Assembly (NCBI GenBank): GCA_002254765.1
Contig: NJDV01000033.1
Span: 1-7,089, forward strand
DNA length: 7,089 bases
DNA from: Thermoplasmatales archaeon ex4484_36
Lineage (GTDB): Archaea > Thermoplasmatota > Penumbrarchaeia > Penumbrarchaeales > EX4484-36
Direction of reading: 5' to 3'
Shown here: piece after piece, positions 647 through 7,057 of the stretch
How positions within the stretch are numbered: position 1 is the stretch's first letter
How the letters are laid out: each line of letters begins with the position of its first letter
Made by a program: the position numbers and the translations under genes
The notes under the pieces: generated by a model
Told to the model about the DNA's origin: nothing
Seen by the model: the letters and a program-made list of their open reading frames with translations, nothing else
Databases searched by the model: none

Positions 647-787
647 TGTTGGATGCTATCTGAATACTTCCTCCATTCCTTGGGGGAATTGACCCTCCCG
701 GGGGAGGAAGAAAAAAGACTGATAGGCATTATTGAAGATGTCCTTGAAGTCACGGGAATCTTTTTATTATACGGCGAAATCCTCTTT

Positions 788-794
788 GGTGGGG
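788..794 (+). promoter_or_regulatory. Ribosome binding site deciding the large-subunit start
   Basis: GGTGGGG lies 6 nt before the ATG at 801. Together with the family-typical N-terminus MPMTVVEKIM it favours 801 over the in-frame TTG at 732 and ATG at 738. Confidence 0.5.
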
Positions 795-800
795 TCCAAT

Positions 801-2048
801 ATGCCCATGACTGTCGTCGAGAAGATTATGGCCGCCCACAGCGGGAAGAAGAGCGTCTCTGCGGGTGACATCCTCTGGATAGACGTAGATGCGAGAACGG
901 CTAGAGACTTCGGCGGGCCCAACGTGGTGAAACACCTTAAAAAGAACTTCGAACCCCCATATGTTGCAGATCCCAAGAGAACCTTTTTCACTTTTGACCT
1001 GAGCACCCCAGCAAGAACAATAAAATACGCCATAAGCCAGCATCTGCTCAAGGAGTTCGCTAAGGAGACGGGGGTTGCGGTCTTTGACGTGGATGAGGGG
1101 ATAGGCACCCACGTGCTTATAGAGAAGGGCATCGTTAGGCCCGGGGACGTTGCAGTTGGAACGGACAGCCATTACAACATTCTGGGGGCGGTAGGTGCCT
1201 TTGGCCAGGGGATGGGGGACAAAGACATTGCCTTCGCTTTCAAGACTGGCAGGATTTGGTTTGAGGTGCCCCCCACTATGAAAATAAAGGTAGAGGGCGC
1301 CTACTCCTGGCCTGCGACAGCAAGGGACCTCACCTTTGCGGTCATGAGGGAGGTAGGCTCCTCCGGGGCTCTAGGAAGGGCAATTGAGTACACGGGGGAT
1401 GCTGTAGAGAGGCTCTCGCTGGACGGCAGGATAACCCTAGCATCGCAGACCACGGAGATGGGGGGCATCGTTGGATTCATACCTCTGAACGGGGAGGTCA
1501 GACGGTTCCTAGAGGAGAGGAGTGGACAGAGGGTGAAAGAGGTTCTGCCGGATAATGATGCGGAGTATGTTGACGAGCTGAGCGTGGAAGTGGTGGGGCT
1601 AGAGCCCTTGGTGGCAGCACCTCCAAGTCCTACAAACGTCAAATCCGTATCCGAGCTTGAGGGGATGGAAATAGACTCCGTCTTCGTCGGCTCCTGCACG
1701 GAGGGGCGCTATGAGAACCTTCTTCAGGTGGCAAGGGTGCTGAAAGGAAAGAAGGTAAAGAAGGGAGTCACCTTCAAAATAACTCCGGCCACGAAAGAGG
1801 TTTGGGCCCGTGCCATACGGGATGGCCTGGTCGACATCTTCCTTAAGGCGGGGGCGGTTGTCTTCTCCAACCCAGGCTGTGGAGGCTGTGCAGAAGGAAT
1901 GGCAGGGCTTGTGGGGGAGGGGGAGGTGGAACTGTCTACCACAAACAGAAACTTCCCCGGAAAACAAGGCCCGGGGAAGGTCTATCTGGTCTCAGCAGCC
2001 ACCGCGGCGGCCTCGGCGGTTAAGGGTTATCTTACAGGAGCGTGGTAG
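801..2048 (+). CDS. leuC: Aconitase-superfamily dehydratase large subunit (3-isopropylmalate dehydratase / homoaconitase type)
   Basis: This is the 415-residue catalytic large subunit of a LeuC/HacA-type hydro-lyase. The family isomerises 2-hydroxy acids (2- to 3-isopropylmalate, or homocitrate to homoisocitrate) through a 4Fe-4S cluster in the cytoplasm. The start at 801 gives the usual opening MPMTVVEKIM and a normal archaeal length. The three cluster cysteines are visible: Cys299 in GSCTEGR, and Cys360 and Cys363 in PGCGGC. The family signature NRNFPGK is at 382-388 and the GTDSH motif at 120-124. Some residues are unusual: the usual Asp-His-x-x-Pro motif reads FDLSTPA (65-71), GI-C-HQ reads GIGTHV (100-105), and GSCTNGR has Glu for Asn. 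I remember similar motifs in a divergent, uncharacterised LeuC-like clade, so the substrate is uncertain and the leuC symbol is provisional. The small subunit follows after 1 nt. No leuA or leuB is in view. Confidence 0.85.
   Translation: MPMTVVEKIMAAHSGKKSVSAGDILWIDVDARTARDFGGPNVVKHLKKNFEPPYVADPKRTFFTFDLSTPARTIKYAISQHLLKEFAKETGVAVFDVDEGIGTHVLIEKGIVRPGDVAVGTDSHYNILGAVGAFGQGMGDKDIAFAFKTGRIWFEVPPTMKIKVEGAYSWPATARDLTFAVMREVGSSGALGRAIEYTGDAVERLSLDGRITLASQTTEMGGIVGFIPLNGEVRRFLEERSGQRVKEVLPDNDAEYVDELSVEVVGLEPLVAAPPSPTNVKSVSELEGMEIDSVFVGSCTEGRYENLLQVARVLKGKKVKKGVTFKITPATKEVWARAIRDGLVDIFLKAGAVVFSNPGCGGCAEGMAGLVGEGEVELSTTNRNFPGKQGPGKVYLVSAATAAASAVKGYLTGAW
2036..2040 (+). promoter_or_regulatory. Ribosome binding site for the small subunit
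   Basis: AGGAG lies within the last codons of the large subunit, 9 nt before the GTG at 2050. It supports translation from GTG rather than from the longer upstream frame. Confidence 0.6.
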
Positions 2049-2049
2049 G

Positions 2050-2616
2050 GTGAAGCCAACTGTGATCAAGGGCAGGGTATGGATGCTCACGGACGATAAG
2101 GGAAGAAGGCTGGACGATGTGGACACTGACATGATATACCACAACCGCTACCTCACGGTGACGGACCCGGAGGATATGAAGAGATATGCCTTCTCAAACC
2201 TCCCGGGGTGGGAGGATTTCCCCAAGAAAGCAGTGCCGGGTGATATACTTATTGTGGGCAGGAACTTTGGCGCAGGGTCCTCCCGCCAGCACGCAGTTGA
2301 CTGCTTCATAGCACTCGGGATATCCGCCATAGTGGGGGAGTCCTTCGGTGCCATATACAAGAGGAACGCCATAAACTCCGGCTGGCCCCTCCTTGAGGCC
2401 CCCGGGGTCTTTGACACCGACCTCAAAACGGGGGATGTGGTGGAGATAGACCTGAAGAGGGGAGAGATAAAAAGGGAGGGAGAGCTTCTAATCAGGGCAA
2501 AGCCCTTCTCAAGGGTTCAGATGGACATATATCAAGCCGGGGACCTTTTCGCCTACGCTAAGACCTCCACTAAGGCGTCTCCTCCTCCTCGCTCTGGGCA
2601 GGGAAGAAACGGGTGA
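2050..2616 (+). CDS. leuD: Aconitase-superfamily dehydratase small subunit (LeuD/HacB type)
   Basis: This 188-residue swivel-domain subunit pairs with the preceding large subunit to form the dehydratase. GTG at 2050 is chosen because it lies 1 nt after the upstream stop, has AGGAG in front, and gives the standard opening (V/M)KPTVIKGRVW; the frame stays open further upstream only because it shadows the large-subunit gene. Visible motifs are DVDTDMI (23-29), the substrate-loop segment RYLTVTD (33-39), GRNFGAGSSRQHA (70-82) carrying the catalytic serine region, and YKRNAINSG (103-111). Known family members carry YLRT for isopropylmalate or YLRK for homoaconitate in the loop; here it is YLTV, without the arginine, and the usual NFGCGSSREH reads NFGAGSSRQH. 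The substrate is therefore uncertain. The last 15 residues (from about 174) are low complexity (KASPPPRSGQ) and lie in the antisense overlap with the next gene. Length is slightly above the usual 160-170 residues because of this tail. Confidence 0.85.
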   Translation: MKPTVIKGRVWMLTDDKGRRLDDVDTDMIYHNRYLTVTDPEDMKRYAFSNLPGWEDFPKKAVPGDILIVGRNFGAGSSRQHAVDCFIALGISAIVGESFGAIYKRNAINSGWPLLEAPGVFDTDLKTGDVVEIDLKRGEIKREGELLIRAKPFSRVQMDIYQAGDLFAYAKTSTKASPPPRSGQGRNG

Positions 2617-5600
2617 TGCTGTCTGATCGGTCCCACGTTACCAGTTGGGCCCTTATGAGGTTCTTCACGTGGTAGTTGACAATCTGCCGGGATATGCCCA
2701 GCTCCCTCGCGATATCCTTCACCGTTATGCCGGGCCTCTCAAGGATCTTGTTGAATATCTCCTCCTGCTTTGTTATGTTGCCCCTCACCTGGTTTACGGA
2801 TACCTCCGTGGGATAGTACCTGCGGTACATCCCATCTATCTCACTTCTTATGAAACCGTGCTTCTCAAGGACCCTGAGGTGATATGCCAGTGTTCCATTG
2901 TTGAGGTTTAGGTTCCTCTTTATGTTTGAATAGTGGTCCCCGGGGTTCGCTATGATATAGCCGCGTATGAGACCTCTTATCTCATGATCCAGGACGTCCT
3001 TTTTGCTCAACTTTGAGTAAAGGTTCACGGCTAGTGCAAATATAAGCGTCCCAAACATCACGTACATAATCAACGCCAGTATACCACCTCCCAGAAGAAG
3101 CACTCCAATTAACTCTGCCCTCCCAACCTCCTTCCCAGTGGTGGGCGTGAAGTCCCAGCCAGGAGATAGGGGGAAGGGGTCTGAGTTGTCTCCCACCCCA
3201 TCACCATCAGAATCCTTCCATTCGTTGGGGTCTAAAGGAAAAGCGTCATCTGCATCCCCCACACCGTCCCCGTCGTAATCCTGCCAGTTCATGGGGTCGT
3301 TGGGGAAGGCATCCAGGAAATCTGGATAACCGTCACCGTCAGAATCTACAGGCTTAAATGGGCTCGGAATGCTTATCTGAACGGCGGCTGGCAGGGAGCT
3401 TTTATCGCCGGTCAGAGCCCTGATTTGAATGCGGTATTCGCCGGCGGAGAGGAGGTCATAAGGCAGAAATATGGACCACTCCTCTGTGCCTTCCGCTGGG
3501 CTCCACTCACCGCTGTCCACCCTCCAGAGGACCCTCTCTACCGGGTCGTCCTCATCCCCTGCCACGCCCCATATCTCCACACCCTCCTCTCCCATCCGTT
3601 TTCCCTCAACCTTTATCCAGATGGGGTCATCAACCGCCACCACCACCACCCACATCGTGCCAGAACCCACAACCTCTCCCTCCTTGAAGGCCTCCACTAC
3701 AACCACCCCCTCCCCATAGCAGTTCCTCTGAGGGGTCAGGGTAATGTTGCTCTCCCCCATCCGGACCTGCATCCACTGGAGGCTGCACTTGGCCCGAAGA
3801 GTCACACCTTTGAAGTCACCCTCAATCTTCAAAGGCACGGTGGTTGGAGGAGAGTCCTCAAGCATGTTCAGCCTGTACGGCAGTTTCACAGACACAGGGT
3901 TCGACGGTATAAGCTTGAGAACCAGCTTTACAACAGAGCGGTTCAGCCTCTCCGGGACAGAGTAAGCCCCGGGGGCGTGGGGGAGGGGTGAGAGGGGCTC
4001 ATCAGAGGCAAGGAGCTGAACCTCCACCTCGCTTTCAGCGTACAGTTCTCTCGTCCAGCCCATAAGAAGGTGCCCGGATCTTATTTCAAGGCTGAAGGCG
4101 TCCGTTATATAGGTCAAGAGGGCCTTCTCCCCGCTGAGGAGGTAGTAGAGAATCTCTTTCCCCTCCGGGTCCACTGCTGGAGGGGTTCTCTCAAGGTCAA
4201 GGAGCGTTCCACTATCTCCCCGAACGGTGAACTCAAGGCTGCCGATGGTTATCTCAGGGGGCTCATTCTCCCTCACAACAATAAGCTCTATCGGCGGGGC
4301 ATCTACAGACCACACACCGTCGTAGGCCGTCACCTGAATAGTTCCGTGTATGGGGGAGACGACCGTAAGGGGCGGACCTATGCGGAGGATGGACCCCTCC
4401 AGGTGAACCTTGATTCCGGGCAAACAGTAGGTCTCAACGGAGTATTGAAGTTCATCTGGGGGGAGCATGTCATCCCTGAAATGCTCAGATAGATCAATTA
4501 TCACCTCCTCCCCGCCCATTCTCAGCTTTACCTGCCCCGGGAGGGGGGAGAATATCTCCGGCGGGGCATTCCACAGCAGGTGAGGGGAGGAGAGCACTAC
4601 CAATCCGGGGCCGGTTCCCACCACCTTAATGGGAAGGTCCCCTGACCTGCTGACTACGCCGCTCAAATAATCTTTCAGAGTGGCGTTGAGGAGGGTGGAT
4701 ATGGTCACATTCAGCGAATAGGTCACGCTGAGGTTTTTAAGGAGCGCCATACCCTCCACCACCTGGAAGGGGAGGTACACCTCCTTGAAGGCGTTTCCCC
4801 ATCCATCGGTAAGAACCCTGCCGGTGCTACGAATGTGAGAGGGCTCCACAACCTCCCTCCTCTCACCTCCCACAAGCTTCTCCATTCCCGCAGGAGTGGA
4901 GAGGACGCAGTACCTCCTTAAGGGGTAGTCCAGGACGAGCACTGTTCCGCCGTACACCCTGGGACCGAAGATGGTGAGGTACTCGGGCGTGAAGACCGCC
5001 GCTGGGGGACAGTAATAGAAGGCCCTGCTGACTTTAAGAATAGGTGGGTACTCACCCATACCCTCCGAGAAGGCGTAGATGGTCAGGTCCCTCCTCTGAT
5101 TCCAAGCCAGAAGGTAGAAAACACCATCGGTAGGAGAGCCGAAGGACTTCAAACTCCAGGGGGACGAAGAGCCGCCGAGCCTCCCCAAGGGCAGGTGGTC
5201 AACTCTGCCCTCCTGCAGGTGAACCCTAAAAAGCGTTCTGTTATCTGGGGAGTAGAGGAGCAGGGTTCGCCCTGCGGAGAATAGAATGAACCTCTGCTCG
5301 GAGTACTCTCTTCTCCGGAAGGTGGTGTTTATCTCAGCCCCTCTGAAGGGAGGGGTGAGGGGCACCTTCAGATACTTAAGATACGAAGTGTCATCTACTA
5401 TTGCAACAAAGGAGCAGTTGCCCGAGCGCTCCTTGAAGAGGACGGGGGAGTATACACTCTTTGAAAGTCTCACACTGGAAGCGGTCATGCGGGAGGTGGA
5501 TATGTGATAGAGGTAGGAGGGATATTGGGTCAGGATTGCCACCTCTACCCCGCCTCTGCCTGAGAAGCCTTCGGCCCAAACGGGCCATCCGCACACGTCA

Positions 5601-6346
5601 AAGCCTCCCAGAAGAGTTCCATTGAGGAGTAGGTATACCTCCCTTGTGGAGATCTCCCTGGCGTCGGTGTAGAGAATTGCAGAGCGGGGAAGGGAGCGGA
5701 GAGGTACAGGGTAGAGGGGGCTGGAAAGCCCTCCCTTGATCACACTCCTTGAGAAATCCCCCTCGCCGGGTCTTAGGATCTCAAGCTGGTAGGCGCCCTG
5801 TGTGTAGTGCAGTGCCAGAAGTTCCACACCACCTTCAAGAGGCAATGTCCATTTACATCCCTCTCCGGGGCTCAGCCATCTCTGCTCCCCCCTCCCCGGG
5901 ATGGGAAGGGGCTCCACATCAACCTTTCCTCCCCGGACCAGCGCCCCTTCAGGAAGCAAGAAGCCTGTGGAGGTGTTGGAGGATGGGTGTAGAACCCTCC
6001 TCCGAGAGGTGTCCATGAAGCCACTCTGCTCTCCGAAGGAGCCAAAAGGCGGACCGCCGAATCCCCACTCCAGGAGGGAGTCTGCTCCGAGGTCTAACCC
6101 CACCTGGGAGGGGTAGGGGGGGCCCGCTCCGGTGGCGATTCTCAGTGAGAACTCCTCCACGCTTTTTATCTCCCCCCTAACGCTCACAGTGATGTTTGAT
6201 ACAGAATCCTCGCCAGGGGAGAGGCGGATAGTGACCTCCTCTATCTCCTCTCCACCCAGTGAGAAGGTGTTCACCTCCTCCGCAGTTACAGGGGAGAGGA
6301 GCATGGGGAGGGTGAGGAGGGCGGTGAGGAGGAGTTTCCTAATCAT
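2570..6346 (-). CDS. Membrane-tethered putative transcription regulator: large ectodomain, TSP3-like repeats, membrane segment, two winged helices
   Basis: The 1258-residue product begins at ATG 6346 because this gives a clear signal peptide (MIRKLLLTALLTLPMLLSPVTA, cleavage near residue 22); the frame continues 116 codons upstream but without such features. In order: a segment with LGADSLLEWGFGGPPFGSFG (86-105), of a style seen in archaeal surface proteins; a long beta-rich region to about 590, possibly propeller-like; Ig/cadherin-like modules at about 593-693, 694-821, 822-905 (EDSPPTTVPL, ending VVVVVAVDDP) and 906-1000; acidic DxDGDG repeats (1001-1063); a hydrophobic stretch (1077-1111); a winged helix (1118-1178) with SNIKRNLNLNNGTLAYHLRV; and a second winged helix (1190-1249) with DIARELGISRQIVNYHVKNL. 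About eleven N-x-S/T sequons lie in the ectodomain, as expected for an exported glycoprotein. I infer a one-component system: outside sensing, inside DNA binding, similar in idea to ToxR/CadC but with reversed order. The double helix-turn-helix pair resembles archaeal two-HTH regulators (COG3398-like). The ligand is unknown. Confidence 0.85.
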   Translation of the reverse strand: MIRKLLLTALLTLPMLLSPVTAEEVNTFSLGGEEIEEVTIRLSPGEDSVSNITVSVRGEIKSVEEFSLRIATGAGPPYPSQVGLDLGADSLLEWGFGGPPFGSFGEQSGFMDTSRRRVLHPSSNTSTGFLLPEGALVRGGKVDVEPLPIPGRGEQRWLSPGEGCKWTLPLEGGVELLALHYTQGAYQLEILRPGEGDFSRSVIKGGLSSPLYPVPLRSLPRSAILYTDAREISTREVYLLLNGTLLGGFDVCGWPVWAEGFSGRGGVEVAILTQYPSYLYHISTSRMTASSVRLSKSVYSPVLFKERSGNCSFVAIVDDTSYLKYLKVPLTPPFRGAEINTTFRRREYSEQRFILFSAGRTLLLYSPDNRTLFRVHLQEGRVDHLPLGRLGGSSSPWSLKSFGSPTDGVFYLLAWNQRRDLTIYAFSEGMGEYPPILKVSRAFYYCPPAAVFTPEYLTIFGPRVYGGTVLVLDYPLRRYCVLSTPAGMEKLVGGERREVVEPSHIRSTGRVLTDGWGNAFKEVYLPFQVVEGMALLKNLSVTYSLNVTISTLLNATLKDYLSGVVSRSGDLPIKVVGTGPGLVVLSSPHLLWNAPPEIFSPLPGQVKLRMGGEEVIIDLSEHFRDDMLPPDELQYSVETYCLPGIKVHLEGSILRIGPPLTVVSPIHGTIQVTAYDGVWSVDAPPIELIVVRENEPPEITIGSLEFTVRGDSGTLLDLERTPPAVDPEGKEILYYLLSGEKALLTYITDAFSLEIRSGHLLMGWTRELYAESEVEVQLLASDEPLSPLPHAPGAYSVPERLNRSVVKLVLKLIPSNPVSVKLPYRLNMLEDSPPTTVPLKIEGDFKGVTLRAKCSLQWMQVRMGESNITLTPQRNCYGEGVVVVEAFKEGEVVGSGTMWVVVVAVDDPIWIKVEGKRMGEEGVEIWGVAGDEDDPVERVLWRVDSGEWSPAEGTEEWSIFLPYDLLSAGEYRIQIRALTGDKSSLPAAVQISIPSPFKPVDSDGDGYPDFLDAFPNDPMNWQDYDGDGVGDADDAFPLDPNEWKDSDGDGVGDNSDPFPLSPGWDFTPTTGKEVGRAELIGVLLLGGGILALIMYVMFGTLIFALAVNLYSKLSKKDVLDHEIRGLIRGYIIANPGDHYSNIKRNLNLNNGTLAYHLRVLEKHGFIRSEIDGMYRRYYPTEVSVNQVRGNITKQEEIFNKILERPGITVKDIARELGISRQIVNYHVKNLIRAQLVTWDRSDSITRFFPAQSEEEETP
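2600..2995 (-). other. Region coding the tandem winged-helix DNA-binding domains
   Basis: The first domain (residues 1118-1178) shows the archaeal pattern YSNIKRNLNLNNGTLAYHL, then LRVLEKHGFIRSEIDGMYRRYYP, with the basic wing near the end. The second (1190-1249) shows ITVKDIARELGISRQIVNYHV and ends in TRFFP. A 10-residue linker separates them. The recognition helices are NNGTLAYHLRVLEKHG and SRQIVNYHVKNLIRA. The C-terminus is a short acidic tail (SEEEETP). Confidence 0.8.
3014..3118 (-). other. Region coding the membrane segment of the regulator
   Basis: Residues 1077-1111 (AELIGVLLLGG, ILALIMYVMFG, TLIFALAVNLYSK) form about 32 hydrophobic residues with no charge after the initial Glu. It is followed by SKLSKKD, a basic stretch expected on the cytoplasmic side. 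It is long for one helix but short for two full crossings. Confidence 0.7.
3158..3346 (-). repeat. Three thrombospondin type 3-like acidic repeats (protein level)
   Basis: Residues 1001-1063 contain DSDGDGYPDFLDAFPNDP, DYDGDGVGDADDAFPLDP and DSDGDGVGDNSDPFPLSP, spaced 22-23 residues apart. Such DxDGDGxxD units bind calcium in known proteins and act as stiff spacers; here they lie between the sensor-like modules and the membrane. Confidence 0.85.
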
Positions 6347-6515: not shown

Positions 6516-7057
6516 ATGATTAAACAATTAGCCTTCATGATGTTATCCTCCCCGATCCCACTCCTCTTTATGTGTTTGCCCTTGTTTGTAATCGTGCGGG
6601 TGGTTATGGCCCTTATAATCCAGCGCTGGCCGTGGGCGGTTGCAGGCCTTCTCGGAGGGCTCCTAGCTCTTCTGATATGGCTCACGGTGAACAAGGAGAT
6701 CCCTCACACTGGAAGGATTCCCTCAAAACCCATTCCGCAATACCAGCATACTCTACCGCAGTACCCATACCCCAGTCCCTACTACACTCCGTCTCCCTAT
6801 CACTACCCGTACCCGACGGGACATCCCACATCCGGAAGGCCCGTCCAGGGCTACACTACCAGTATCCAACGGGGCATCCCACATCCGGAAGGCCCGTCCA
6901 GGGCTACCCACCAGAGGGCGGATGGGGGCAGGCAGGGTATAGATATCCCCCGAGCTATTACTATCAGCCCAAGCATCCCCCCGCTAGAAGGGAGATGAAG
7001 CGGCAAAGTGAACAGAGCAGTGGAGGGGCACGGTCGCATAAGGAAGAAAAAATTTAA
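6516..7057 (+). pseudogene. Small membrane protein with Pro/Tyr-rich tail, frame broken by one missing base at about 6854
   Basis: I do not recognise a family. The frame from ATG 6516 encodes two hydrophobic segments (about residues 8-34, including LLFMCLPLFVIVRVVMALII, and 39-57, AVAGLLGGLLALLIWLTV), then a tail rich in Pro, Tyr and His. After the first copy of the repeat HYPYPTGHPTSGRPVQGY (6801-6854) the frame slips and would end at 6998. The second copy, HYQYPTGHPTSGRPVQGY, is read in another frame that continues PPEGGWGQAGYRYPP to TAA at 7055-7057, ending in a charged tail (RREMKRQSEQ, KEEKI). Restoring one C (TAC-CAC in place of TACAC near 6853-6856) joins both parts into a 180-residue protein. 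Three of the four base differences between the copies are silent in these two frames, so both were coding until recently, or the base is a sequencing error. The gene is divergent from the large regulator and may be its target. Confidence 0.7.
6801..6907 (+). repeat. Degenerate 54-bp coding tandem repeat with one base lost (observed period 53)
   Basis: Copies at 6801-6853 and 6854-6906 match at 49 of 53 positions, and the last 33 bases of each (through the shared C) are identical. The differences fall at the first third of the unit. In coding terms they are Pro to Gln once and three silent changes. Confidence 0.93.

Follow-up and report, generated by a model that had tools for sequence, protein, structure and literature searches.

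A putative membrane-tethered receptor-regulator of a Thermoplasmatales archaeon and the conserved cassette that it shares with a family in Thermoplasmatota

Introduction

How archaea poor in histidine kinases sense their surroundings is, to our knowledge, largely open. In proteins of the ToxR/CadC type, the cytoplasmic winged helix is N-terminal and the ectodomain is C-terminal. The gene analyzed here encodes a protein in the reverse order. It lies on a stretch of 7,089 nucleotides from Thermoplasmatales archaeon ex4484_36 (positions 1 to 7,089 of contig NJDV01000033.1, assembly GCA_002254765.1; this whole stretch is called the window below), and according to our analysis it probably encodes a membrane-tethered one-component receptor-regulator that would switch its target genes from the membrane.

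Transmembrane transcription regulators (TTRs), which combine a DNA-binding domain and a membrane segment in one polypeptide, are most commonly single-pass proteins and number on average 4 (±2) per archaeal genome (Demey et al. 2023, PMC10269533). SusR of Bacteroides binds maltose in the periplasm and carries a putative helix-turn-helix (HTH) near its C terminus, in a C-terminal domain without significant similarity to other known regulators (PMC3878776). The hybrid two-component systems (HTCS) of Bacteroidetes form an expanded family with an N-terminal sensor made of a large beta-propeller and a YYY domain, a membrane pass, and a C-terminal DNA-binding domain (PMC3243724, PMC3878776). ArnR and ArnR1 of Sulfolobus are membrane-bound one-component regulators with an N-terminal HTH, a HAMP-like part, and two C-terminal membrane segments (PMC6396743).

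Gene and protein architecture

The receptor gene runs from 6346 to 2570 on the minus strand, the strand of all features of the protein located below, and comprises 1,258 codons plus the stop in a single stop-free frame. A reading of this DNA from its letters alone (the sequence-only reading) had proposed exactly the interval 2570..6346 and one uninterrupted frame; the frame belongs to the minus strand, the plus-strand reading of the same interval containing 24 stops. Frames of this length do not occur by shuffling: the stop-free stretch around the gene spans 1,377 codons, versus a maximum of 317 codons in 300 shuffles of the window. An assembly chimera or a decayed gene, in which a surface protein and a regulator had been fused by accident, might be suspected in a draft genome that is 54% complete and divided into 111 contigs. 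However, besides the single stop-free frame, the N-terminal domain of the window protein as well as its tail is matched by 32 of the 39 closest relatives, six of the other seven being shorter proteins, and we therefore give this explanation next to no probability and deem it refuted by independent relatives.

Pfam matches the protein only in its C-terminal ~140 residues, where PF24266 (HTH_HVO_0163_N; 67 bits, cutoff of 31), PF12840, and PF13412 are all above cutoff. The AlphaFold2 model of the C-terminal 199 residues has a mean predicted local distance difference test score (pLDDT) of 87.4 and a predicted template modeling score (pTM) of 0.48. It contains one continuous helix at residues 1074 to 1112 (3011..3127), formed by the single predicted membrane segment (hydrophobicity of 2.61 over 19 residues) and its extension into the cytoplasm, followed by two winged helices with a two-strand wing each: winged helix 1, the PF24266 domain, at residues 1115 to 1179 (2810..3004), and winged helix 2 at residues 1193 to 1249 (2600..2770), both also supported by Pfam and by alignment. 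The one membrane segment and two winged helices of the sequence-only reading are thus recovered, with both winged helices complete.

The N terminus, MIRKLLLTALLTLPMLLSPVTA followed by EE, is signal-peptide-like by eye and by hydrophobicity (residues 1 to 22, 6281..6346; hydrophobic segment at residues 5 to 23), as had been noticed before. Since the model of the C-terminal part shows no hairpin and the signal peptide would be cleaved, the two ends are predicted to lie on opposite sides of the membrane, the N terminus outside and the C terminus inside. This topology is further suggested by the family, which we evaluated on 80 aligned modules plus the window protein; 4 of these 81 were without the anchor motif, and 4 of the remaining 77 open reading frames (ORFs) were without a membrane segment above threshold, two of them (the short ORFs of loci L049 and L095) having no hydrophobic segment at all. 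An N-terminal hydrophobic segment is present in 60 of the 66 family ORFs with a closed N-terminal side, the window gene included, and no additional strong membrane segment was detected between the two hydrophobic ends in the sample, at the threshold used. Net charge is positive beyond the membrane helix in 72 of 73 members and negative ahead of it in 71 of 73; the window protein itself has net charges of −48 in the ectodomain and +4 in the cytoplasmic part. The orientation proposed earlier, with the sensor N-terminal and outside and the DNA-binding part C-terminal and inside, is therefore borne out as a prediction.

A conserved output cassette

The membrane helix, a juxtamembrane motif, and the double winged helix constitute a cassette that is conserved in 80 aligned sequences, a set that omits modules below 90 bits and 8 loci repeating genes of the closed chromosomes CP070751.1 and CP070739.1. 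The consensus consists of the membrane helix, T-E-x-G-K/R, a short hydrophobic stretch, P-L-Y-(T/S)-(K/R)-(I/L)-K-K, V-L-D-H, and the winged helices. E66 of the T-E-x-G-K/R motif is found in 93% of the 72 sequences having that position; in winged helix 1, R94, P105, and G106 (model numbering) are invariant in all 80, while across the cassette L89, H126, and L130 reach 99% and G121 reaches 98%. Winged helix 1 has the recognition helix N-G-x-L-A-Y-H-L and the wing K/R-R-F/Y-Y-P, and winged helix 2 carries a conserved Y-H. A lack of DNA-contacting residues had been named as an objection to a regulatory role; a recognition helix of the NGTLAYHL type and the basic wing are kept in these sequences, and the double winged helix likely binds DNA.

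With the tail as query, 73 proteins were retrieved, the window protein among them. Thirty-nine (P0003 to P0041) also resemble it in ectodomain parts, and all 33 distant homologues (P0042 to P0074; 728 to 1,829 residues) match it only from residue 1048 onward; one of these, P0072, with a NosD ectodomain, is labeled [Eubacterium] cellulosolvens by its source. An initial scan of genome contigs gave no relative. Scanning the reference genomes with a profile then yielded 71 stretches that reduce to 53 loci, and the titles of all these loci are of Thermoplasmatota type (Thermoplasmatota, Thermoplasmata, Thermoplasmatales, Methanomassiliicoccales, Euryarchaeota, and Marine Group III). Strong matches to the tail profile (E ≤ 1e-30) occur in 30 of the 150 genomes of the phylum that were searched, the window's genome included, with at least 14 matches in the richest genome (at most 17 scored per genome). 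A subset of candidates was scored per genome in the phylum scans, so that the counts per genome are lower bounds; matches of one such scan also include ectodomain repeats, and those of the tail profile include ORFs too short to hold an ectodomain (3 of 5 in the window's genome). PF24266 itself was matched in 112 of the 150 genomes (107 above cutoff) and in 3 of 14 control genomes outside the phylum, those of Methanocaldococcus jannaschii, Haloferax volcanii, and Methanosarcina acetivorans.

In Thermoplasmatota this tail is joined to varied ectodomains, including WD40, PQQ, and FG-GAP propellers, PKD, NosD beta-helix, CARDB, and immunoglobulin (Ig) domains. From these sequences, the membrane helix, juxtamembrane motif, and double winged helix are recognized as one conserved cassette on unrelated ectodomains in many Thermoplasmatota proteins. 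The earlier guess that similar architectures may exist in related archaea was right and understated, the family being an expanded one. Its extremes include a stop-to-stop frame of 2,744 residues with NosD, FG-GAP, PQQ, and PKD ectodomains on the same tail (L071:441-8672, plus strand), and, in the window's genome, two short proteins (L192 on contig C9 and L194 on contig C2) with a PLYSKL/PLYSRL juxtamembrane motif and a double winged helix and no ectodomain.

The closed chromosome CP070751.1 harbors 20 cassette ORFs, counted on 18 stretches that cover 20 of the strongest of 31 matches, and CP070739.1 harbors 11, for which 11 of 22 matches were used, the rest being weaker and mostly in short ORFs in both cases. 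Both an N-terminal hydrophobic segment and a C-proximal membrane segment are present in 18 of the 20 members of CP070751.1. A Pfam-named ectodomain family was found in 13 of the 20 and none in the other 7, the ectodomains comprising WD40 with PKD, PKD alone, a PQQ propeller with PKD and Big_7, NosD beta-helix, CarboxypepD_reg, CARDB with PKD, and another propeller. BLAST detects similarity (E ≤ 1e-3) in only 42 of the 190 pairings of ectodomains, and mean identity is 47.6% in winged helix 1 and 35.3% in winged helix 2. With other kinase families excluded from the HisKA counts, this chromosome has 3 HisKA and 5 response-regulator matches versus the 20 cassette genes, and CP070739.1 has 1 and 4, respectively.

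Further observations concern the arrangement of these genes. L162 and L166 of CP070751.1, at distant places, are 85% identical across 517 ectodomain residues, likely a recent duplication, and L161 and L162 each contain two adjacent receptor genes. In L153 and L171, one from each closed genome, the receptor gene and the gene downstream of it, which has an NPCBM_assoc/Ig-like product of ~900 residues, share four bases, and a DUF763 gene is preceded by a receptor in both L156 and L175.

The ectodomain

The ectodomain of the window protein carries 11 sequons, versus 3.0 ± 1.6 expected, a number reached in 0 of 2,000 shuffles (two further sequons lie in the cytoplasmic part), and in the model of residues 23 to 1120 (mean pLDDT of 65.7) the protein is almost entirely beta ahead of the membrane helix; a beta-rich ectodomain with many sequons is what the sequence-only reading had described. 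The model starts with a well-predicted N-terminal beta domain at residues 23 to 150 (5897..6280; pLDDT mostly above 80), the domain that also occurs in 32 of the 39 closest relatives; mean identity here is 28%. A weakly predicted, propeller-like segment follows at residues 151 to 505 (4832..5896), where mean identity to the aligned relatives is 14%. Relatives carry FG-GAP repeats here, and the DxDGDG-type loops found in this segment in 31 of 33 aligned relatives are absent from the window protein; this absence and the low identity led us to drop a calcium-binding propeller for it. Residues 506 to 1000 (3347..4831) form a chain of beta domains of Ig- or cadherin-like type, and residues 1001 to 1058 (3173..3346) contain three thrombospondin-type-3-like DxDxDGxxD repeats, DSDGDGYPD, DYDGDGVGD, and DSDGDGVGD, starting at residues 1001, 1023, and 1045, as against a mean of 0.0 in 2,000 shuffles. 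These are the three acidic repeats seen previously.

The domain search and structure prediction suggested by the sequence-only reading gave a divided outcome: Pfam and AlphaFold2 were informative for the C-terminal part, whereas the ectodomain fell into no Pfam family and was modeled at lower confidence, poorly so at residues ~150 to 505. A protein search with the ectodomain alone returned only the window protein among the 7,989 most word-sharing candidates scored. Most solved structures that resemble the ectodomain belong to Ig, cadherin, FN3, or S-layer chains.

The S-layer chains, which rank with the structures most similar to the Ig-like part, together with the almost uniformly basic tail, fit a surface or S-layer-like protein whose tail would anchor the chromosome at the membrane and regulate no specific genes. 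We consider such a role very unlikely, since the tail holds two complete winged helices in which recognition helix and wing are conserved, the variety of ectodomains suits sensors, and the gene neighborhood is conserved in one subgroup.

Mode of action and input signal

In the tethered action that we favor, the ectodomain, likely extracellular, would bind a ligand, and binding would alter how paired receptors are spaced or rotated. This change would be relayed by the continuous helix leading from the membrane into winged helix 1, and the double winged helix, predicted inside, would alter its DNA binding and transcription from the membrane. The main rival to tethered action is regulated release, in which a site-2-type or other membrane protease would cut the helix once a ligand is bound, freeing the double winged helix to reach its operators. 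This resembles Notch-like or SREBP-like signaling. The same anatomy fits it, M50 site-2-type protease matches were found in all three genomes examined, and short proteins of little beyond the cassette exist (P0088, P0089, P0090, and P0092, besides L192 and L194), some of which may be gene fragments. However, M50 was also matched in 14 of 14 control genomes, so that its presence is uninformative, and a conserved juxtamembrane motif with a continuous helix exceeds the needs of a tether; we regard release as the less likely mode.

As to the input, each of the six loci fetched for close relatives (L048 to L053) has an MTAP-like nucleoside phosphorylase gene directly downstream of the receptor on the same strand, overlapping the receptor stop or starting within ~40 bases of it, and a purine phosphoribosyltransferase gene comes next in five of the six and ~2.8 kb further in L052. 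In L050 the phosphorylase is closest to MTAP in NCBIfam (172 bits, under the equivalog cutoff of 275), and the phosphoribosyltransferase falls in the adenine phosphoribosyltransferase subfamily (173 bits, cutoff of 146). Because these two genes directly follow the receptor, the nearest relatives of the window protein likely have an extracellular nucleoside or nucleic-acid signal as their input. The placeable loci with these salvage neighbors all come from one order of the phylum, and the conservation is therefore of limited depth. The polymer, surface, or partner cell suggested as target by the sequence-only reading is conjectural, and the close relatives point to nucleoside salvage instead. 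What this hints at for the close relatives we do not extend to the window protein, whose neighborhood differs. It is possible, and we propose it tentatively, that Thermoplasmatota have a system of their own in which a standard cassette was shuffled onto interchangeable sensors, outnumbering two-component systems in some members, and in which the branch of the window protein reads extracellular nucleosides or nucleic acids.

Several observations speak against these proposals. The window gene is flanked by leuC/leuD-like genes, not by salvage genes, and the phosphorylase of its genome lies on another contig. Besides the window gene, a single gene of that genome, C54, combines the cassette with a membrane segment, and its second winged helix is shortened; at 54% completeness the genome gives 4 HisKA and 5 response-regulator matches, hence no cassette excess. 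Both hydrophobic segments are found in just 7 of the 11 members of CP070739.1 at the same threshold. With regard to topology, the ends are predicted on opposite sides and not on the same side, but the count of K and R beside the membrane helix is less clean, being higher inside in just 52 of 73 members, and the placement of the membrane helix relative to the winged helices is uncertain (pTM of 0.48). Finally, recognition helix 1 is scarcely better conserved than its fold, with identities of 52.6% versus 47.6% in CP070751.1 and 49.2% versus 51.9% in CP070739.1; on these values we dropped the idea of one operator common to all paralogues through a common recognition helix.

Comparison with described systems

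Both elements of the TTR definition, a DNA-binding domain (PF24266, PF12840, and PF13412) and a membrane segment (residues 1074 to 1112), are predicted in the window protein. The present family differs from the surveyed TTRs in that a single genome holds 20 members of this one family and in that the sensor is N-terminal and predicted outside; the words "Thermoplasm," "PKD," and "PQQ" are absent from the main text of the survey (PMC10269533). Like SusR, the window protein is large and, by prediction, senses outside the cytoplasm with an HTH near the C terminus, a likeness in arrangement. Unlike SusR, the family is archaeal and has two winged helices, the first of PF24266 type, and Ig, propeller, PKD, or NosD ectodomains. 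With HTCS it shares the N-terminal sensor, the membrane pass, the C-terminal DNA-binding domain, and the expansion of the family, but no histidine kinase, receiver, or AraC domain was found in the window protein among Pfam matches to E = 1, and winged helix 1 starts at residue 1115, just after the end of the membrane helix at 1112. By analogy, SusR and HTCS may serve as the nearest working models, here without a phosphorelay.

ArnR is likewise of the archaeal membrane-bound one-component type, which for the window protein is a prediction, whereas here the order is reversed, with the HTH C-terminal, a single membrane helix, and a large ectodomain. The first winged helix belongs to the same Pfam family, PF24266, as that of soluble HVO_0163-type regulators. 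Short double winged-helix forms without ectodomain and membrane helix also occur near receptors: in L049 (2138-2725, minus strand) and L053 (2281-2895, minus strand), a regulator of this kind, without a hydrophobic segment, adjoins the receptor, and the two are 73% identical. We found no description of the cassette family among the titles and abstracts of the open PMC papers listed, a search that reached neither most subscription papers nor the collection of bioRxiv itself. Tentatively, then, the family appears undescribed; the TTR class is already known, and what seems to be new is a cassette family with variable ectodomains.

Other features of the locus

On the plus strand, window positions 732-2616 hold leuC/leuD-like genes for the large and small subunits of an isopropylmalate dehydratase or homoaconitase; the gene for the small subunit, with its end at 2616, converges on the receptor gene, and the two share 47 bases at their 3′ ends. 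The receptor protein of the window is ~34% identical to that of L050 over 800 residues. Given this context, the phosphorylase on another contig, the missing FG-GAP-type loops, and this identity, the window protein is a diverged and likely relocated member of its group. On the other side, a divergent ORF of 160 codons (6516-6998, plus strand) has a hydrophobic start, a proline/tyrosine-rich tail with a near-exact direct repeat around 6820-6910 (by eye), and no Pfam family above cutoff.

No palindromes with arms of at least 6 were detected in the 226 bases examined upstream of the window gene, and those upstream of the receptors in L049, L052, and L053 differ from one another. Directly upstream of the receptor, these three loci have in common a ACAGATAAAAA element followed by an AT-rich stretch (by eye), which is likely the receptor promoter.

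Implications

If our reading is correct, this family would be an archaeal counterpart of the glycan sensors SusR and HTCS in gut Bacteroidetes, but one in which no phosphorelay separates the sensor from the DNA. The last ~170 residues would then suffice to recognize many of the large Thermoplasmatota surface proteins as receptors, and each new ectodomain would represent a new outside-to-DNA circuit in one gene. A constant output cassette with variable sensors would separate inputs from gene sets, an arrangement that is directly testable.

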